A program made the translations under genes and the position numbers. DNA of 64,000 nucleotides from Necropsobacter rosorum (GTDB lineage Bacteria > Pseudomonadota > Gammaproteobacteria > Enterobacterales > Pasteurellaceae), in the NCBI GenBank assembly GCA_000751835.1, contig CCMQ01000004.1:1-64000 (forward strand), in the 5' to 3' direction. The notes under the pieces are model-generated. The model was given only the letters and a program-made list of their open reading frames with translations, was not told where the DNA came from and searched no databases. Shown here one piece after another: positions 1 to 10,187 of the stretch; within the stretch, counting starts at the first letter, position 1, and each line of letters opens with the position of its first letter.

Positions 1-18
1 ACAGCACAGCACAGCACA
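1..18 (+). repeat. ACAGC pentanucleotide simple sequence repeat (cut by window edge)
   Basis: Three full ACAGC units plus ACA form the first 18 bases, and the tract runs off the left edge, so its real length is unknown. It lies inside the open frame of the methyltransferase gene, reading Ser-Thr-Ala-Gln-His. A five-base unit is not a multiple of three, so gain or loss of one unit shifts the frame and switches the gene off. Short tandem repeats in mod genes of Haemophilus, Neisseria and Actinobacillus are the known basis of phase-variable methyltransferases (phasevarions). Confidence 0.75.
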
Positions 19-2936
19 ATTCTGCTAAACTCACCGAACTTGTCAAGAAATTAAAAGAAATTTTTCAAATTGATCGTCCTGATTTAGATTTCGGGATTTA
101 TCGCATTCTGAATGCTCGCCAAACACAAATTCAGCATTTCTTAGAGCAACAACTGCCGCAAAAAATTCAACAAAATTTGCAGGAAACGGCACAGCAAAAT
201 GCCGTGTATAGCCACCTTCTCACCTTTTTCTCACGCTATTACGAACAGGGCGATTTTATCAGCCAACGCCGTTATAAAGGCGACACCTACGCCATTCCTT
301 ATAACGGCGAAGAAGTAATGCTGCATTGGGCAAACAAAGATCAGTATTACACCAAATCGGGCGAAAATTTCAGTAACTATCGTTTTTCCCTTGCCGACGG
401 TCGTCAGGTGGAATTTCGTTTAATTGCGGCAGATACGGCAAAAGATAACCAAAAAGAGAACGATAAAGCCCGTGTTTTTATGCTGGCGGAAGCCCAAACC
501 GTCACGGAATTTGACGAAAACGGCGATGAAATCATTCAAGAAATTATGCCGTTTTCTTTGAATAAAAATACCCTAACCCTTTATTTTGTTTATCAATTTG
601 CTGAAAAAAGCAAAAAACAGCCCGTTTACGTGAAAGAAGCGGTCGAATTTTTACAGCAAAATGCAAATTTAACCGATTGGGAAGCCATTTTTGAACTTGC
701 GCCAACGGAAAAAGAGAAAACTCGCACGTTGCTGGAAAAATATCTCACCGATTACACCACAAAAAATTCTGCCGATTATTTTATTCACAAAGATTTAAAC
801 GGTTTTTTACGCCGTGAGCTGGATTTTTATATTAAAAATGAGCTGATGAATTTAGATAATCTGCAAAGTGCGGCAGATTTTTCGCCGATTGCAGAAAATT
901 TACTGTTAATTCAAACCTTCCGCAAAATTGGCTTAGAAATTATTGCCTTTTTAAGCCAATTAGAAAACTTCCAAAAGAAATTATGGCTCAAGAAAAAATT
1001 TGTCGCTAACTGCCATTATTTAATTACGCTAGACAGAATTAACGAAAGTTATTACCCGCAAATTGTAGAAAATAAAAGACAATTAACGCAGTGGAAAACC
1101 TTATTTAATATCGAAATAGAAAGCCTTGAAGATCTGCAAAAACAGCTTGAAAATTCACCGCACTTGGTGCTGGATACATCTCTTTTCTCGCCTAACTTCC
1201 AAGCAGATATTTTGGCAGAAATCAGTGAGTTAGATGAAAATACCGACGGTTTAATTATTCATTCCGATAATTTCCAAGCATTAAATTTATTGCAAACAAA
1301 ATATAAAGAACAGGTGAAGTGTATTTATATTGATCCGCCGTATAATGCAAAATCATCAGAGATTTTATACAAAAATACATTTAAGCATTCAGCTTGGATA
1401 ACTTTAATGGATAACAGAATTGAATTAGGTAAAAATTTACTAAAAGATAACTCTTCACAAGCTATTGCAATTGATGAAGTTGAACAAGAGAATTTAGGTT
1501 ATTTAATAAAAAATAATTTTATTGGGTGGAGTAAAAATTGTATACCAATAGTACACAATCCAAGGGGGCAACAAGGTAAGAATATATCATATGTACACGA
1601 GTATTTATTTTTAATATATCCAAATGATAACTACAAATATATTTCAGATGTTAAAAGAATCGAAGTAGACTCTAGAAATTTAAGAGATAGTGGTACAGAG
1701 TCAGATAGAATAGATGCTAGAAATTGCTTTTACCCTTTTATCATAAAAGATAATAAAATTATAGGGATCGGAGACGTTCCCAATGATGATTTTCACCCAA
1801 ACTCATCAAACATATTAAAAGATAACGGAATAATTGAAATATACCCAATAGATGACAATGGTAATGAAAAAAAATGGAGATATGCGAAACAAAGCGTTAA
1901 TAAAATTATTGATAAATTAGAAGTGAAACAGGGAAGAAATAATCTACAAATTATTTTCAATAAAGATACAGGCGTTATGAGAAGTTTATGGGTTGATCCT
2001 AAATATGATGCAAGTGAGTATGGCACTAAAGTATTGCAAGATACTCTTGGTAGCGAGTTAGCAAAAGGATTTTCCTATCCAAAATCTATAAATACAGTAT
2101 CAGAAATTATAAATATTCAATTTAATAATGATATAGGTATAGTTTTAGACTACTTCGCAGGCTCTGGCACAACCGCTCACGCTACTATTAACCTAAACCG
2201 TGAAGATAATGGCAAGCGGAAATATATTTTGGTGGAGCAAGGCGAGTATTTTAATACCGTATTAAAACCACGTATTCAAAAAGTGGTGTTTGCGGAGAAT
2301 TGGAAAGACGGCAAGCCGCAAGCTGATGAAAAGGGCTTTAACGGCGTTTCGCATATTTGTAAAGTGTTAAAGCTAGAAAGCTATGAAGATACGCTGAATA
2401 ATTTAACCTTACAAACGCCGACAAATGGATTTAATTTTGATGAACAAACGGCACAAGATTATTTATTGCATTATATGCTGGATATTGAAAGCCGTGAGTC
2501 GTTATTAAATACGCAACATTTTAATAAACCGTTTGATTATGAACTTAATATCTCCACCGATTCAGCAGGGGCGTATTTGCCACAAAAAATTGATTTGGTG
2601 GAAACCTTTAATTATTTAATCGGTTTGAACGTATCGCATATTGATGACCAACGTGAAAAACGGGGTTATGTATTAGTGGAAGGCAGGTTGCCAAATAATG
2701 AAAGTGCGTTAATTGTTTGGCGAGATTGTGAAAAAGTTGGCTATGCCGAAATTCAAGCTCTGTTTGATAAATTAAGCATTAACGCCAAAGAGAGTTTTTA
2801 CGATCTGATTTATTTAAACGGCGACCATAATATTCCAACTATTTCTAGCCTTGATGACAACAAGGAAGAATATAGCCTTAAACTTCGCCCGATTGAAAGC
2901 GAGTTTTTGCGATTGATGTTTGATGTGAATGAATAG
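3..2936 (+). CDS. Type III-like adenine DNA methyltransferase (Mod), 5' partial
   Basis: Beta-class DNA methyltransferase that would modify adenine (less likely N4-cytosine) in its recognition site. The frame is open from base 3, so the true start lies upstream of the window, and the leftmost internal start candidate (TTG at 177) is not credible because conserved-looking sequence precedes it. The catalytic motif DPPY is at about residue 444 of the visible 977, and the AdoMet-binding FAGSGTTAHA is at about 718. This order, with the target-recognition domain between them, is that of type III Mod proteins. The region between the motifs (about 1350-2140) is clearly more AT-rich than the flanks. 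About 190 bp downstream lies the helicase-nuclease gene, and a SNF2 helicase follows. The pentanucleotide repeat at its 5' end suggests phase-variable expression. Confidence 0.88.
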   Translation, partial: STAQHNSAKLTELVKKLKEIFQIDRPDLDFGIYRILNARQTQIQHFLEQQLPQKIQQNLQETAQQNAVYSHLLTFFSRYYEQGDFISQRRYKGDTYAIPYNGEEVMLHWANKDQYYTKSGENFSNYRFSLADGRQVEFRLIAADTAKDNQKENDKARVFMLAEAQTVTEFDENGDEIIQEIMPFSLNKNTLTLYFVYQFAEKSKKQPVYVKEAVEFLQQNANLTDWEAIFELAPTEKEKTRTLLEKYLTDYTTKNSADYFIHKDLNGFLRRELDFYIKNELMNLDNLQSAADFSPIAENLLLIQTFRKIGLEIIAFLSQLENFQKKLWLKKKFVANCHYLITLDRINESYYPQIVENKRQLTQWKTLFNIEIESLEDLQKQLENSPHLVLDTSLFSPNFQADILAEISELDENTDGLIIHSDNFQALNLLQTKYKEQVKCIYIDPPYNAKSSEILYKNTFKHSAWITLMDNRIELGKNLLKDNSSQAIAIDEVEQENLGYLIKNNFIGWSKNCIPIVHNPRGQQGKNISYVHEYLFLIYPNDNYKYISDVKRIEVDSRNLRDSGTESDRIDARNCFYPFIIKDNKIIGIGDVPNDDFHPNSSNILKDNGIIEIYPIDDNGNEKKWRYAKQSVNKIIDKLEVKQGRNNLQIIFNKDTGVMRSLWVDPKYDASEYGTKVLQDTLGSELAKGFSYPKSINTVSEIINIQFNNDIGIVLDYFAGSGTTAHATINLNREDNGKRKYILVEQGEYFNTVLKPRIQKVVFAENWKDGKPQADEKGFNGVSHICKVLKLESYEDTLNNLTLQTPTNGFNFDEQTAQDYLLHYMLDIESRESLLNTQHFNKPFDYELNISTDSAGAYLPQKIDLVETFNYLIGLNVSHIDDQREKRGYVLVEGRLPNNESALIVWRDCEKVGYAEIQALFDKLSINAKESFYDLIYLNGDHNIPTISSLDDNKEEYSLKLRPIESEFLRLMFDVNE

Positions 2937-2966
2937 TGAATAAATAGCGATTGAACATTTAAAATT

Positions 2967-2994
2967 GTAGCGGACGCCAGCGTGGCGTCCCTAC
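2967..2994. repeat. Palindromic hairpin, first of a REP-like pair
   Basis: The arms GGACGCCA (2972-2979) and TGGCGTCC (2983-2990) form a perfect 8-bp stem with a GCG loop. GTAG and CTAC extend it across one unpaired C. A related hairpin lies 53 bases further on. The sequence is more GC-rich than its surroundings. It resembles REP-type intergenic palindromes, and could also reduce transcription between mod and the helicase gene. Confidence 0.7.
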
Positions 2995-3042
2995 GCCAAA
3001 TCGAGCCTACACGGAAAATATCAGCAAAACCAAAGATCCAAT

Positions 3043-3065
3043 GTAGGGACGCATTGAATGCGTCC
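3043..3065. repeat. Palindromic hairpin, second of a REP-like pair
   Basis: GTAG is followed by GGACGCATT (3047-3055), a single G, and AATGCGTCC (3057-3065), a perfect 9-bp palindrome. It shares GTAG and the GGACGC/GCGTCC arms with the hairpin at 2967-2994, but the asymmetric ends are arranged the other way round. A pair of imperfect palindromes in opposed orientation is the layout of REP/BIME-type repeats. No T-run follows, so it is not an intrinsic terminator. Confidence 0.65.
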
Positions 3066-3126
3066 GCCAACGCAAATTTACACAAATATTTGAAAATGCG
3101 AAAAATGAAATAAAAAAGGAATAAAA

Positions 3127-6100
3127 ATGGCAAAACAACCTAAAATCAACCGCACTTTTCACCAAGATTTAATTTTAAACCATTGGGCAATGTCGTTTTT
3201 TTATTGTGCGGATATGCCTGAATTTAGCCGTCGATTAAGCGATGTCAAAGAAGGTATTTCAGAAAACGGGCAAAGTTACTTTTTTGAGAAACTCACCGAA
3301 GGATTATTCAACCCAAATAAAATCAGCGAGCAAGATTTACGCCGTTATGATTTAAACATTATTCAACATTGGCAGAAAATCACTGAACGTCGCAATCAAC
3401 AAGCACAGGAACTTCACCTAAAATACTTCCAATACTTACTTTTATTGTTTACGGAAATTTATTTAGATCGATTTTTTAATCAGCCTGAACAGTTAATTCA
3501 AGATTTAAATCAATTTTTAGCGAACCAACAGGCAGAAGATAAACATTACCCCAAATTTCAGCCATTTATTTTAGACGATCTAAACAAAATTGCTTTTTGG
3601 AGTGCCACAGGCAGCGGCAAAACCTTGTTAATGCACGTAAATATCTTGCAATATCAGCACTATTTTTCGCAAAAACAGAGCGATAAATTGCCGATTTTCT
3701 TGCTTACGCCAAATGAAGGCTTATCGCTTCAACATTTAAAAGAATTTGAAGAATCCAATCTATCCGCCACTATTTTTGATAAACAGCGTGGCATTGGTTT
3801 ATTTGATGAAATTCAGATTTTAGATATTCATAAGCTCGCTGAAAAAGACGGCGAAAAAACCATTGCTGTTGATGCCTTTGAATCGCCGTATAAATTGGTG
3901 TTAGTCGATGAAGGTCATCGTGGTAATTCGGGAGATAGCTGGCTAAATTTACGTAATAAATTGGTCGGCAATGGTTTTTCTTTTGAATACTCTGCCACTT
4001 TTGGGCAATCTATTAAAGAGCGTAAATCGATTGCGGAAAAGTTAAAGAAAAACCTTTCCGAAGAAACCATTTCAGAAGAGCGGCAGCGAAATTTATTTGA
4101 GATGTATGCCAAATCAATTTTATTTGATTATTCTTATAAATATTTTTACAAAGATGGTTATGGCAAAGAGAGTTTTATTCTAAATTTATCTGGCGATGAT
4201 ATAGAACAAGAAGATAACGATAAAAAATATTTTTTAGCGGGGTTACTTGCTTTTTATCAACAACTTTATGTTTTTGCAAAATATCATCAAAATCTGACCG
4301 TTTACAACCTAGAAAAACCCCTTTGGGTTTTTGTGGGGAGTAAAGTTAATAACGAAGAAAGCGATGTATTACAGGTATTGGAATATCTGGCTTATTTTGT
4401 GAATAATCCTGAGAAAATTCAACGTTGGCTTCAATTATTATTAGACGGCAAAGCCTTTTTAGATAAAAACGGTGATCCTATTCTAAAAACGCAATATGAT
4501 GCGTTACTTGAAGAATGGAAAGAAAACATTAACGGGCTTTATCAAGATATTTTAAGAAAATTATTTAATGCTGAACATTCACAACGGCTCAATTTAGTTA
4601 ATTTGAAAAAAGCCAGTGGTGAACTTGCTTTGCGTTTAGGCAGTTATCCGCCGTTTGGTGTGATTAACATTGGTGATGATAATAAATTCTTTAATCAGGC
4701 AAGTAATAATCATCATTTTGATACAATACACGATGATTTTAGCGAAGGTTTATTCCAACAGATCAACAGTGAGAAAAGTGCGGTCAATTTATTGATTGGT
4801 TCTAAAAAATTCACCGAAGGTTGGTCTAGCTGGCGAGTTTCTACAATGGGGCTATTAAATATCGGTAGAAGCGAAGGCAGCCAAATTATTCAATTATTTG
4901 GACGTGGCGTGCGATTAAAAGGCAAAGATTTTTCGTTAAAACGTAGTCAAAAAAATGAATTTTATTTAAATAAGCTCGAAACTTTAATGATTTTTGGTGT
5001 AAAAGCCAATTATATGGAACAATTTAAAACCTATTTGCGTGAAGAAGACGTGCCGATGAATGATGAAATGATTACTATCAATTTCAATACTACGCTTTTT
5101 TTGCCGAAAGGGATAAAATTAAAAACATTGAAGTTAAAAGATGGTTATAAAGATAATCAACGCTTTGGCTTTAAACGTCAGCAAATTATTACGCTTTATG
5201 ATGTTCCTAAAAAATATCAGCATATTAAAAAAGTAGAAGTGGTTTTAGATTTATATCCCCGTTTAGATGCGTTAAGTACGCAAGGCACAGTAAAATCGTT
5301 GTTTGATGTGCGTGAAGAACATAAATTAGATGCAGCACTCTTCCCTTTTTTTGATTGGGATAAAATTTATCTTTCGCTTTTAACCTTTAAAATGCAAAAG
5401 ACGTGGTTTAATTTGCAACTGAGCAAAGAAAAATTACGCTCCTTTGTGGAAAATAATCAGGATTGGTATCAGCTTTATCTGCCCAAAGAAGCCTTAGCAG
5501 TGAATGATTTTTCAGCGGTGTTTAAGCAAGAAGCGATTTTAATTGAGCTGTTAAAACTCTATACCGAAAAATTCTATCAACGTTTGAAATCGGCGTATGA
5601 GAATGAACATTTGCACACGGCGGAAATTGAAGCCGATTATCCTGCACTTTCAGAAAAATATCTCTTTTCAGTAACAGAAGATGATGCCGCTTGTTATGAT
5701 TCTAAACTCAATGAGCTAAAAAAACATATTGAAAATAGCGATTTGAAAAAGGCAATCTCTTGGATTTCGCCTGATGCGAACTTGCACGCCATTATTTTTG
5801 AATCGCATTTATATCAGCCACTTTTTAATGTGGACGAAATAGAAAATCTGCCGTTTAAACTTTCTCCGTTATTATTAAAAGAAGAGAGTGAACTAAAATG
5901 GATTGAAGATTTAATGTCTGCTCAAAAAAATGGTGAACTTCAACAATGGATTGGCGATTGTGATTTATATTTATTGCGAAATCCTGCTAATAAATCAAAA
6001 GGTTTAGGTTTTGCATTAGCAGGGAACTTTTACCCTGATTTCTTGTTGTGGTTGGTGAATAAAAATACGGGCAAGCAATATTTAAGTTTTATTGATCCGA

Positions 6101-6342
6101 AAGGTATTCGTCAATTACATAAAAATGATGTGAAATTTGCCTTGCACGAAGAAGTTAAAACATTGCAAGCGAAAATCGCTGATCCGAATTTATGTTTAAG
6201 TGCGTTTATTTTATCCATTACTAAACAAGATGAGTTAATTGCCGATTATTCTGCCGAAGAATTAAATAAGAAACATATTTTGTTTATGCACAATGATCAT
6301 TATTTAAGCCAGCTTTTTGCGATGATTTTAGGAGACAAATAA
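3127..6342 (+). CDS. DEAD/DEAH-type helicase with C-terminal nuclease motif (Res-like subunit)
   Basis: 1071-residue superfamily 2 ATPase, probably the restriction subunit paired with the upstream methyltransferase. Walker A is ATGSGKT (residues 160-166), the Walker B box is DEGH (261-264), and a motif VI-like QLFGRGVR sits near 590. Close to the C-terminus, YPDF (Asp971) followed by FIDPKG (Asp990, Lys992) fits a PD-(D/E)XK nuclease core, so the protein could both translocate and cut DNA. Classical type III Res proteins share this architecture but usually have DEPH rather than DEGH. The start is supported by an AAGGA ribosome-binding site. Its stop overlaps the ATG of the SNF2 gene (TAATG), implying translational coupling. 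It contains USS copies, so it has probably been in the family for some time. Confidence 0.85.
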   Translation: MAKQPKINRTFHQDLILNHWAMSFFYCADMPEFSRRLSDVKEGISENGQSYFFEKLTEGLFNPNKISEQDLRRYDLNIIQHWQKITERRNQQAQELHLKYFQYLLLLFTEIYLDRFFNQPEQLIQDLNQFLANQQAEDKHYPKFQPFILDDLNKIAFWSATGSGKTLLMHVNILQYQHYFSQKQSDKLPIFLLTPNEGLSLQHLKEFEESNLSATIFDKQRGIGLFDEIQILDIHKLAEKDGEKTIAVDAFESPYKLVLVDEGHRGNSGDSWLNLRNKLVGNGFSFEYSATFGQSIKERKSIAEKLKKNLSEETISEERQRNLFEMYAKSILFDYSYKYFYKDGYGKESFILNLSGDDIEQEDNDKKYFLAGLLAFYQQLYVFAKYHQNLTVYNLEKPLWVFVGSKVNNEESDVLQVLEYLAYFVNNPEKIQRWLQLLLDGKAFLDKNGDPILKTQYDALLEEWKENINGLYQDILRKLFNAEHSQRLNLVNLKKASGELALRLGSYPPFGVINIGDDNKFFNQASNNHHFDTIHDDFSEGLFQQINSEKSAVNLLIGSKKFTEGWSSWRVSTMGLLNIGRSEGSQIIQLFGRGVRLKGKDFSLKRSQKNEFYLNKLETLMIFGVKANYMEQFKTYLREEDVPMNDEMITINFNTTLFLPKGIKLKTLKLKDGYKDNQRFGFKRQQIITLYDVPKKYQHIKKVEVVLDLYPRLDALSTQGTVKSLFDVREEHKLDAALFPFFDWDKIYLSLLTFKMQKTWFNLQLSKEKLRSFVENNQDWYQLYLPKEALAVNDFSAVFKQEAILIELLKLYTEKFYQRLKSAYENEHLHTAEIEADYPALSEKYLFSVTEDDAACYDSKLNELKKHIENSDLKKAISWISPDANLHAIIFESHLYQPLFNVDEIENLPFKLSPLLLKEESELKWIEDLMSAQKNGELQQWIGDCDLYLLRNPANKSKGLGFALAGNFYPDFLLWLVNKNTGKQYLSFIDPKGIRQLHKNDVKFALHEEVKTLQAKIADPNLCLSAFILSITKQDELIADYSAEELNKKHILFMHNDHYLSQLFAMILGDK

Positions 6343-9203
6343 TGCAAGTTACTGCTTATCACGCCAAACTTTATGCAAATGAAATTGCTTGTCGAAATTC
6401 AGGCAATTCAGCGGTTGATAGCCTTTCACAATCCCTATTTGATGCAAAAGTGGATTTAAATCCGCATCAAATTGAAGCCGCACTTTTTGCCCTGAAAAAC
6501 CCGTTACAACAAGGGGTGATGCTTGCCGATGAAGTGGGTTTAGGAAAAACCATTGAAGCGGCGTTGGTGCTTTGCCAATACTGGGCGGAGCGACAACGAA
6601 ATTTATTGATTACCTGCCCCGCAGTATTGAGCAAACAATGGCAAACGGAGCTAGGCGATAAATTTGCTTTGCCAAGTTTAGTGGTCGATCGTTTGGTGAT
6701 TAAAAAAAGCGGATTAAGCCCCGCGGAATTCTTCCGACGCAATGCAGGTAGCTTTATTTTGATTATGTCGCACCAGTTTGCGGCAAAAATGGAAACTGCT
6801 TTAATAGCAAATCAATGGCATCTAGTGGTGATTGATGAAGCGCATAAATTCCGCAATGCTCACAAGAAAAGCAACCAATTGGGACAAACGCTGCGCCGTG
6901 CTTTTCAAGGCTGCCGCAAATTATTGCTTACCGCCACGCCATTGCAAAATTCCTTAATGGAGCTTTATGGGCTTTCTACACTACTAGATGAATATTTGTT
7001 TGGTGATGAAAAACAGTTTCGTCGTCAATTTGTTCGGCAACAAGATTTAGATGAACTTCGGCTACGGCTGAAAACCTTTGTGAAACGGACGCTGCGCAAA
7101 AATGTGTCGGAATATGTACATTATACGAAACGCAAACCCGTTACCCAAGCCTTTACTCCAACAGACGCAGAACAATCACTTTATGAACAGATTTCTGCTT
7201 TCTTGCAAGAAGAAAGCCTGTTTGCGTTGCCAAAGCGTAGCCGACATTTGATGATTTTAGTATTACGAAAACTGCTTGCTTCCAGTCCGCAGGCAATTTT
7301 GGATACGTTAAACAAAATTTTATTACGTTTGCAAAAAATACAAGAAAATCGACCGCTTGCAGAAGACGATGATGATGATTTAGTGGAAGAATTGGGCAGT
7401 GATTATTTGGAGTTTTTGGATAACGACGACGAAGAAAGTGAAAAACAACAAGCAGAGCAAGCCCAGCTTGCCAAAGAAATTGCTCAAATTCAGCAGTTTA
7501 TTGCACAGGCAAAATCACTTAAAACAGATCGTAAAGCTCTTGCGTTGCTTGACGCATTAAACGTTGGTTTTAAGCAAATGCAACAATTCGGAGCAAACCA
7601 AAAAGCGATTATTTTTACTGAATCTGTCCGCACGCAAGCCTATTTGGTGGAATTTTTAAGTCAACATGGCTATGCCGATCAAATCGTAGCGTTTAGCGGC
7701 ACAAACAGCCATAAAGCCGCCAGCGATATTTACGAAAAATGGAAAGCAGAGAATGCGGGCTCAGAACGAATCACAGGTTCGATAGAAATAGATAAACGCA
7801 CGGCGTTAATCGACCACTTCAGAAATCAGGCTAAAATTATGATCGCCACTGAAGCCGCTGCCGAAGGTATCAATTTGCAGTTCTGCTCGTTGTTGATTAA
7901 CTACGATTTACCGTGGAATCCGCAGCGTTTGGAACAGCGGATCGGGCGTTGTCATCGTTATGGACAAGAACATGATGTAGTTGTTATTAATTTCTTAAAT
8001 GAGCGCAATGCCGTGGATAAGCGTGTGTTACAGCTGTTGCAGGAAAAATTTAATTTGTTTAATGGCGTATTTGGTGCTTCTGATGAAATCTTGGGCAAAA
8101 TTGAGTCTGGCGTGGATATTGAGCGTAAAATTTTAGCGATTTATCAAAGCTGCCGAACCGCAAGTGAAATTCAAGCCGCTTTTGATGCATTGCAAAAAGA
8201 GTTAGACGAGCAAATTCAAGCGACTTTGCGAGATACTCAACAACAACTTTTTGATAGTTTCGACCAAGATGTGCTGGAAAAACTGAAAATTGCCGCAACA
8301 GACCGTTTAAACAAAATGCAGCAATGGGTGTGGCGTCTAACGCAGTTTATGCTGGCGGATTTTGCCAAATTTGATGAAAAAAACTACCGTTTTTGGCTCA
8401 AAAGGTCCCCAGCAAATGTGCCATGCAAGCTAGGTGAATATCACCTGCTCCAACGTAAACAGAAAGGCATTTCCGATCTTATGCAGCAGGGTATAACCTA
8501 TCGCCTAACACAACCTTTGGGCGAATTTTGTTTAACCCAAAGTTTACGGCTGGATACGCCATATCGCACCTTAACTTTTTATTATCAGCCACAAAAAGAA
8601 GGTAAATTAAGTCTTGTAGCACAACAATTAGGAAAATCGGGTTGGCTACGGGTAGATAAAATCAGTATTCATTCTGAAATTCAGCAACTTCAAGAAACTC
8701 TAATTTTTACTGCCTGTACTGATCAAAAACAATGTCTTGATGCGGATTTTTGTCGTCAGCTTTTTTCACTATTATCAGAGCAACAAACCTCAACTCAGGC
8801 AATACCTATAATCTTGGAACAAACGGCAAATATACGGATTGAAAGTGAAATTAATCGTTTTAGAGAAATGAATAAGCAATTAATTATTGAACAGGAAGAA
8901 CGTTTAAACAAATGGGCTGAAGATTCCGTTAAAGCGCTTGAAGAGGAATTAACTCAGCTCAAAAGTGAAATTAGCCAATTAAAGCGACAATCTCGTCAAG
9001 CACAATCACTGGAAGAAAAATGCCAATTACAACTGGAAATAAGTCAACGAGAAAAAACACTCCGCCTTGCTCGCCGTAATCTTTTTGACAAAGAAGATGA
9101 AATTAGCGAACAGAGAGACAATTTAATTGACGATGTAAATGAAAAATTAGCGCAACATACACAAAAAGTATGTTTATTTCAGATTAGGTGGCATGTAATA
9201 TAA
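6342..9203 (+). CDS. SNF2-family helicase, third subunit of the methyltransferase operon
   Basis: 953-residue SNF2/RapA-like ATPase. DEVGLGKT (residues 63-70) is motif I, DEAH (165-168) is motif II, TATPLQNS is motif III, and QRIGRCHRYGQ (532-542) is motif VI in the C-terminal RecA lobe. An acidic run (EDDDDD) interrupts the middle. The last 130 residues are rich in Glu/Gln/Lys heptads and probably form a coiled coil, ending in a short basic tail. It starts on the TAATG overlap with the helicase-nuclease gene, so the two are made together. DISARM also pairs a SNF2 protein (DrmD) with a methyltransferase, but its DrmA and DrmB partners are not seen here. A role as DNA translocase in defence is inferred. 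Confidence 0.88.
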   Translation: MQVTAYHAKLYANEIACRNSGNSAVDSLSQSLFDAKVDLNPHQIEAALFALKNPLQQGVMLADEVGLGKTIEAALVLCQYWAERQRNLLITCPAVLSKQWQTELGDKFALPSLVVDRLVIKKSGLSPAEFFRRNAGSFILIMSHQFAAKMETALIANQWHLVVIDEAHKFRNAHKKSNQLGQTLRRAFQGCRKLLLTATPLQNSLMELYGLSTLLDEYLFGDEKQFRRQFVRQQDLDELRLRLKTFVKRTLRKNVSEYVHYTKRKPVTQAFTPTDAEQSLYEQISAFLQEESLFALPKRSRHLMILVLRKLLASSPQAILDTLNKILLRLQKIQENRPLAEDDDDDLVEELGSDYLEFLDNDDEESEKQQAEQAQLAKEIAQIQQFIAQAKSLKTDRKALALLDALNVGFKQMQQFGANQKAIIFTESVRTQAYLVEFLSQHGYADQIVAFSGTNSHKAASDIYEKWKAENAGSERITGSIEIDKRTALIDHFRNQAKIMIATEAAAEGINLQFCSLLINYDLPWNPQRLEQRIGRCHRYGQEHDVVVINFLNERNAVDKRVLQLLQEKFNLFNGVFGASDEILGKIESGVDIERKILAIYQSCRTASEIQAAFDALQKELDEQIQATLRDTQQQLFDSFDQDVLEKLKIAATDRLNKMQQWVWRLTQFMLADFAKFDEKNYRFWLKRSPANVPCKLGEYHLLQRKQKGISDLMQQGITYRLTQPLGEFCLTQSLRLDTPYRTLTFYYQPQKEGKLSLVAQQLGKSGWLRVDKISIHSEIQQLQETLIFTACTDQKQCLDADFCRQLFSLLSEQQTSTQAIPIILEQTANIRIESEINRFREMNKQLIIEQEERLNKWAEDSVKALEEELTQLKSEISQLKRQSRQAQSLEEKCQLQLEISQREKTLRLARRNLFDKEDEISEQRDNLIDDVNEKLAQHTQKVCLFQIRWHVI

Positions 9204-9367: not shown

Positions 9368-10187
9368 TCATCTGCCGCCCTTCGGCATACCGAATACGGT
9401 CTCCACAATCTCTCCCTGCACCGGCGGATCTGTCGGTCGGTGGCCGTCATACATGACCGTTGCGCCGAAAGCCTGTTGAAAGAAAGCGCTCGCCGCCACG
9501 CCTTGCGCGTTCGGTGATTTCCGGGCGGCAATACCGATTAAACGCGCCTGCAACGACGGCACCACACCGAAAGTCAGGGCGCCTAAAAGTGCGGCCAGAA
9601 TCGCCATAAAAATCGCAGATTGCGCGGCAAACCACATGGTGATATTCATAAAATAAGACCGCCGATAATAACGACGTTGGCTTTAAATTCGCCGATTTTA
9701 TCGGTCAGTTTACCACCGATAATATTGCCGATCGCGGCGGCCACACCGTAAATTAACATAAAAACGCCGATTGATGTTGTACTGACACCGGTAAGTCGGG
9801 TAAGCAGCGGCGCGATATAAGTATAGGCGGTGAAATATCCCGCATAGGAAAACACGGTAACCAGCGCCGCACCGAGTAATGCCGGGCTAAACAGCAGCAT
9901 TATATTCTGTTTTACCGAAAAACGATGCGCAGATTTTAATGCGTCCTGCATGCCAAACCACAAGCCGAAAAAGCCGATGACATCGAACACCGCAATCAGA
10001 CCCAACATTAAACGCCAGGACAACATTTCGCCGAGATAGGTTGTGACCGGAGCGCCATGGCGGTTATCAGGCTGCCAAGCGAGAAAATCAGCGCCGTCAT
10101 CAACATCGCATTTTTTCTTGACCAGTTGATGGTCAGCGCGGTTAAAATAGGTGCGGCGAATGTTGCGGGCAATATAGAGAACGCCAT
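9368..10187 (-). pseudogene. MFS transporter remnant (AraJ/NepI-like), multiply broken
   Basis: Three pieces of one major facilitator protein lie in order on the minus strand. The first (10187 to about 10060) reads APILTALTINWSRKNAM and then runs out of frame. The second (10026-9646) carries VTTYLGEMLSWRLMLG and several membrane helices. The third starts at 9649 in another frame, through the ATGA at 9646-9649. Homologues in this family have a first helix before APILTAL and roughly 60 residues between the LITA and YLGEM segments; both are missing, so there is a 5' deletion, an internal deletion and at least one frameshift. After QGVAASAF the sequence no longer looks like the family. The original substrate is unknown. 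Confidence 0.8.

Follow-up and report, generated by a model that had tools for sequence, protein, structure and literature searches.

A probable phase-variable type III restriction-modification system with an SNF2 ATPase as its third component in Necropsobacter rosorum

The window analyzed here covers 64 kb of the Necropsobacter rosorum assembly, counted from base 1 of contig 4. Within its first 9.2 kb (positions 3-9203) lies a three-gene locus, all on the + strand, that encodes Mod, Res and an SNF2 protein. We consider it probable that this locus is a phase-variable, three-component type III restriction-modification (R-M) system in which the SNF2 protein is a helper. The starting points for this reading are direct observations: the identity of the genes, their catalytic motifs, the conserved association of the three genes and the switch tracts. 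A first-pass annotation of the window had proposed the three open reading frames, and each was found at the position given there, as was the TAATG (6340-6344) in which the SNF2 start overlaps the res stop. The features are as follows, with the evidence in brackets.

1-18, +: 3' end of the (ACAGC)n pentanucleotide repeat that lies at the mod 5' end (sequence; the contig starts within the array)
3-2936, +: mod, type III DNA methyltransferase of the long type; the contig edge truncates its 5' end and leaves 977 aa visible (PADLOC, Pfam, structure matches)
1332-1346, +: Mod motif IV DPPYN, residues 444-448 (16 homologues)
2148-2168, +: Mod motif I DYFAGSG, residues 716-722 (16 homologues)
2972-3066, no strand: inverted pair of the dispersed repeat GTAGGGACGC-N6-TGCGTCC, between mod and res (repeat comparison)
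3127-6342, +: res, type III restriction subunit, SF2 helicase and PD-(D/E)XK nuclease, 1071 aa (PADLOC, motifs)
3604-3624, +: Res Walker A ATGSGKT, residues 160-166 (homologue motifs)
6034-6102, +: Res nuclease motif PDF...DPK, residues 970-992 (15 homologues)
6342-9203, +: SNF2 gene, DrmD/RapA-like SNF2 ATPase, 953 aa (PADLOC, Pfam, homologues)
6525-6551, +: SNF2 Walker A ADEVGLGKT, residues 62-70 (37 homologues)
8808-9146, +: SNF2 C-terminal coiled-coil hairpin, residues 823-935 (AlphaFold2 model)

Because mod and res are separated by a gap of 190 bp, only res and the SNF2 gene are tightly coupled. This gap contains a dispersed dyad repeat, of which one inverted pair fills it, and the gap folds better than shuffled sequences (z -3.3). 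About 12 close copies of the dyad occur in the genome, several of them as inverted pairs roughly 70 bp apart; further copies lie at 150561-151622 of contig 4 (G000:C4) and on other contigs. Beside the locus, two short adjacent frames on the - strand (window 9368-10026) read as fragments of a single MFS transporter gene, which may have decayed.

The first two proteins have the features expected of type III subunits, in agreement with their initial description as a type III-like Mod and a Res-like helicase with C-terminal D...D-P-K nuclease residues. Mod matches the PADLOC model MTase_III PDLC03646 (960 bits) and carries the Pfam domain N6_N4_Mtase. Its DPPYN and DxFxGSG motifs are invariant across 16 homologues (for the latter, D716, F718 and G720-G722), and motif IV precedes motif I, which is the beta-class order of type III Mods. 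The best PDB matches, both by sequence and by fold, are likewise type III Mods, so that Mod combines DPPY and FxGxG motifs in the beta-class order with relatedness to known Mods. In the Mod model, whose pLDDT is only 69.9, the N-terminal region had no separate fold match among the PDB matches listed. Res matches the PADLOC model REase_III PDLC03654 with 988 bits over residues 3-1067. The helicase motifs ATG(S/A)GKT, DEGH and SAT are retained in all 15 Res homologues, and the C-terminal PD-(D/E)XK nuclease is represented by PD(F)...DPK (P970-D971 and D990-P991-K992), in which PD is invariant and DPK is present in 13 of the 15. No solved relatives of Res were found with phmmer (E up to 1) or with a profile search (0.001).

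The third protein had been described as a 953-aa SNF2 ATPase with a coiled-coil tail, and both parts of this description agree with what we find. It has the Pfam domains SNF2-rel_dom and Helicase_C, is conserved from end to end in 37 homologues and keeps its motor motifs; the Walker A motif is invariant in these homologues except for V65, which is nearly invariant. The AlphaFold2 model (mean pLDDT 80.9) comprises an SNF2 core, a linker, a beta-containing domain (approximately residues 675-816) and the coiled-coil hairpin, which forms a helical tail. Among PADLOC models, the best is DrmD (657 bits, best stretch 30-649), and the best NCBIfam model is also DISARM DrmD; the score of 658 bits falls short of that model's cut-off of 950. 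In Foldseek, the top match of the model is RapA (E 4.7e-26, more than 1000 alignment columns). The RapA alignment spans the full length, while chromatin remodellers, which rank below it, match mainly the motor. However, the resemblance to RapA is one of global fold only (TM 0.40-0.53, about 16% identity), profile searches restrict the sequence similarity to the motor, and the RapA equivalog cut-off is missed (141.7 versus 576 bits, PRK04914). We therefore use RapA as an analogy that rests on fold resemblance in a model, and not as a family label.

If homologues of the SNF2 gene mostly occurred without the other two genes, the first-pass grouping of the three would fail. We took the SNF2 homologue as the unit of the test and sought it without regard to its neighbors. 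The profiles used in this survey were built partly from the same loci; this can inflate scores, but it does not produce reading frames where none exist. In species genomes of bacteria and archaea, the scan yielded 80 SNF2 loci: 51 trios, 8 with SNF2 and Mod and no visible Res (mostly cut by a contig end), 14 cut short and 7 with neither. Mod or Mod and Res are thus present at 59 of the 66 evaluable loci. Eleven named phyla and one candidate phylum are represented among the trios, and four of the seven loci that lack both Mod and Res have divergent SNF2 proteins. A sample of Gammaproteobacteria chosen on SNF2 alone agrees with this: the gene is present in 22 of 369 genomes (about 6%), and among the 20 loci extracted, 3 are cut short and all 17 evaluable ones have Mod and/or Res. 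The grouping consequently withstands this comparison.

Within Pasteurellaceae, 17 of 140 genomes have an SNF2 homologue, 15 have the Res family of the window and 13 have both, within about 10 kb of each other (Fisher p 3e-13, where genomes are counted and these are not independent events). When all Mod and Res families are included, 15 of the 17 SNF2 loci are trios; of the remaining two, one has only Res and the other neither Mod nor Res. Plasmid records of Escherichia coli, Klebsiella, Salmonella, Aeromonas, Blastomonas, Deinococcus, Hymenobacter and Conchiformibius also carry the SNF2 gene, and all eight of the plasmid loci that we opened are trios. No phage-borne SNF2 copies were found at E 1e-80.

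The converse association is much looser. Relatives of Res without SNF2 occur in every lineage, in 2 of 15 cases in Pasteurellaceae and in 3 of 9, 8 of 20 and, judged by position, 24 of 25 cases in Gammaproteobacteria. They are most common in the PDLC03647 lineage, where SNF2 adjoins Res in only 1 of 25 sampled genomes. Since SNF2 loci nearly all have Mod or Res and Res is often without SNF2, the dependence of SNF2 on type III R-M far exceeds the reverse. Gene content thus indicates that SNF2 is optional for type III R-M, and that classical two-gene restriction works without it. It also indicates that the SNF2 gene is no hitchhiker in the R-M locus. Instead of the classical composition of Mod and Res alone, these loci have SNF2 conserved alongside both core subunits.

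The Mod and Res proteins that accompany SNF2 fall into three lineages, which we distinguished with custom profiles: the long-Mod type, to which the window belongs (PADLOC PDLC03646/03654), a short-Mod type (PDLC03636/03648) and a third (PDLC03634/03647). In a tree of 100 SNF2 proteins, the R-M lineages are clustered, with about 10 lineage changes, which is fewer than shuffled labels need. The SNF2 proteins of L039 and L103 are close on the tree, and these loci differ in R-M lineage. This pattern of re-pairing fits a helper that would be independent of the specificity, or recognition site, of the enzyme it accompanies. Only two gene orders were seen, namely the usual SNF2-Mod-Res and the Mod-Res-SNF2 of the window; the latter is seen in a single well supported clade, made up of Pasteurellaceae and Conchiformibius, and in one actinobacterial locus.

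Other genes are also found at such loci. Defence-like genes are inserted between SNF2, Mod and Res at eight of them (L036, L037, L035, L041, L160, L167, L107 and L169), encoding HEC-01 AAA+DUF4276, AIPR/AbiU-like, Abi_2, OLD family, M78 peptidase and C5 methylase proteins, which makes the operon look like a landing site for cargo. At one locus (L097, 12861-22835), an SNF2 relative adjoins HEC-06/Orf5-like and DruE-like genes instead of Mod and Res, and it is possible that this relative was recruited to another defence system.

The first-pass annotation had considered phase variation only as a condition, and sequence evidence from the window and from its relatives now supports it strongly. The window opens with ACAGCACAGCACAGCACA, inside an (ACAGC)n array of which contig 4 retains three units at its start, and the Mod start codon therefore lies outside the window. 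The array at the mod 5' end broke the assembly. Arrays with the unit CAGCA are found at four contig ends in this genome: the end of contig 1, the end of contig 4, the start of contig 27 and the start of contig 4. Two are 3' halves, belonging to the mod gene of the window and, at the end of contig 4, to a type I hsdM that is accompanied by hsdS. The others are 5' halves: contig 27 has ATGCCAAACAGC..., which reads MPN(STAQH)n, and contig 1 has ATGACACAGCAC.... An MPN(STAQH)n start has been reported for the type I enzyme M.Btr188III, in which an ACAGC repeat codes for (STAQH)n (PMC4996451). Elimination leaves contig 1 as the predicted carrier of the window's mod start.

The array of the type I hsdM lies on the - strand at 155609-155698 of contig 4 and 1-48 of contig 27. 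Two R-M systems of different types in this genome thus have a common repeat unit, and mod and hsdM may switch through a common slippage process.

Of 14 long-type mod genes in Pasteurellaceae, 7 (the window's included) have ACAGC or CAACA arrays at the 5' end, and 6 more have runs of G or C. In six relatives the array directly follows the ATG, with 16 CAACA units in G050 and with ACAGC units numbering 18 in G088, 10 in G118, 16 in G123, 4 in G034 and 7 in G002. This is a simple repeat in the mod frame whose length differs between relatives, from 4 to 18 units. Read from this ATG, only G088 has an open frame; in the other five relatives it is shut. The second type of tract, located within mod, consists of 8-12 consecutive G or C (L156, L157, L158, L165, L166 and L167); in five of these six relatives it lies near residue 373 of the window's protein, at the junction between the N-terminal region and the methyltransferase, and in one near residue 222. 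The two halves of mod are in different frames in five of the six, and the gene is open in G115. Tracts that close the gene in one species and leave it open in another are the pattern left by slippage switching. No tract of comparable size was found in res or SNF2 at the Pasteurellaceae loci with mod tracts, and no pentamer arrays were found in the loci surveyed outside Pasteurellaceae. We regard it as very likely that mod actually switches.

In type III enzymes, Mod gives Res its specificity, and Res hydrolyzes ATP and cuts on meeting unmethylated sites. In our model, Mod would recognize a short asymmetric site and methylate it, and Res would be the ATP-driven nuclease that cuts DNA with unmethylated sites. 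The SNF2 protein would be the conserved third partner, a RapA-like ATPase that tracks along double-stranded DNA and moves on the same foreign DNA. By slippage, the ACAGC array at the mod 5' end would turn Mod on and off and would thereby supply Res with its required specificity subunit or withhold it. The genomic association makes it highly probable that Mod, Res and SNF2 act together. It is a more tentative suggestion, drawn from analogy and somewhat more likely wrong than right, that SNF2 clears roadblocks, i.e., that it might push bound proteins or stalled RNA polymerase off invading DNA so that Mod-Res finds paired sites and cuts. Since the match to RapA is one of global fold only and SNF2 motors are versatile, this role is a guess among several; SNF2 might otherwise make the restriction of live phage or plasmid DNA efficient.

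The main rival to a helper in restriction is a brake. Here SNF2 would keep the cell alive by stripping Res or Mod-Res from host DNA, e.g., behind the fork or upon a switch of Mod, and would not itself contribute to restriction. SNF2 motors such as Mot1 and RapA do remove proteins from DNA, and in Pasteurellaceae, where Mod is phase-variable, self-protection is a genuine concern. However, SNF2 is equally tightly associated in lineages without a switch tract, and relatives of Res live without SNF2. In addition, type III Res needs Mod for DNA recognition, so that switching OFF should be harmless even without a brake. We consider the brake unlikely. Rather less likely still is that the locus now serves chiefly as a phasevarion, with Mod switching altering host expression by methylation, and with res and SNF2 as remnants. 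Regulons are controlled by phase-variable type III mods, some of them in Pasteurellaceae (PMC13076061, PMC12456177), inactivation of res is frequent in phase-variable type III systems (PMC3874151), and res or SNF2 is broken in the relatives L161, L164, L167 and L158. In the window, however, res and SNF2 are intact with every motif present, and most relatives have a full-length trio; moreover, a regulatory role of this kind is compatible with restriction.

The insertion of HEC-01, AIPR, Abi_2 and OLD genes within or beside the trio, together with the seven evaluable SNF2 loci that have neither Mod nor Res, might suggest that SNF2 is a separate defence gene that merely shares a defence cluster. 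This is hard to reconcile with the near-constant adjacency on the same strand, the TAATG coupling, the restriction to two gene orders and the clustering of R-M lineages on the SNF2 tree, and divergent SNF2 proteins account for four of the seven exceptions; we consider it very improbable. A decayed or partial DISARM, to which the best PADLOC and NCBIfam models of SNF2 would point, is refuted in practice, and we rejected it. Apart from the missed DrmD cut-off, which none of the 22 Gammaproteobacteria homologues passes either, Mod and Res are full type III subunits, and the absence of DrmA and DrmB that was claimed for the operon holds throughout the genome. For DrmB (DUF1998/MZB domain) there is no match in the whole genome. 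There is also no genuine DrmA genome-wide, only partial weak matches to the window's SNF2 gene, to an SNF2-like frame of 995 aa on contig 10 and to a frame of 655 aa on contig 8.

Returning to the three-component reading, its broadest form is that there is an unnamed and widespread class of type III systems. In this class, a RapA/DrmD-type SNF2 would be a working third subunit across three Mod/Res lineages, and in Pasteurellaceae two independent slippage switches would flip the restriction barrier and the methylome together. We advance this form as a serious possibility that falls a little short of an even chance. Type III enzymes are described as two-subunit machines, and judging from sequence a large subset may carry a third motor. 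If so, models of long-range communication between sites and of restriction on protein-covered DNA would need revision, and defence finders that report only Mod and Res, or a stray DrmD, would be splitting one system in two. The switch tracts permit a direct test in natural populations.

In proposing a distinct architecture, the first-pass annotation had argued from the presence of two motors in one operon. This argument does not hold as such, since DISARM, Dpd and BREX already have several motors in one modification system. The part that stands is the recurring trio, for which no name was found in the literature searched or among PADLOC, NCBIfam and Pfam names; DISARM 2018, the type III repeat surveys and REBASE lie outside this search, which is thus no proof that the system is unnamed. 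The parts are known, and it is their recurring three-part composition that we found unnamed, again as a statement about the literature searched.

Among known systems, the type III enzymes EcoP15I, EcoP1I and Mbo45V resemble the locus in their beta-class Mod and in a Res with SF2 helicase and PD-(D/E)XK nuclease; however, the locus differs from them in its conserved third SNF2 gene and in an extra N-terminal region of about 400 aa on Mod. DISARM class 1 (drmD-drmMI-drmA-drmB-drmC) shares a DrmD-like SNF2 motor and an adenine-type methyltransferase, whereas the trio is without DrmA, DrmB and DrmC, its SNF2 scores below the DrmD cut-off and its Res is a full type III subunit. ARMADA, Druantia, Dpd and BREX likewise have large SF2 or SNF2 motors within modification or defence operons, but none has a Mod-Res core. 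YprA helicases form the basis of ARMADA and Druantia (PMC12458937), and we rejected an identity with ARMADA because it is YprA-based. RapA (HepA), an SNF2 ATPase that recycles RNA polymerase, is the closest solved fold, with an SNF2 core and C-terminal domains; the differences are the low identity, the residence of the SNF2 gene in R-M operons and the presence of a separate SNF2/RapA-like frame on contig 10. Finally, the phase-variable mods modA, modM and modP and the hsdM M.Btr188III are also genes behind a simple sequence repeat, and in M.Btr188III the ACAGC repeat coding for (STAQH)n is identical. In contrast to these, the switch in the window drives a three-gene system, and six relatives use a G/C run inside mod.
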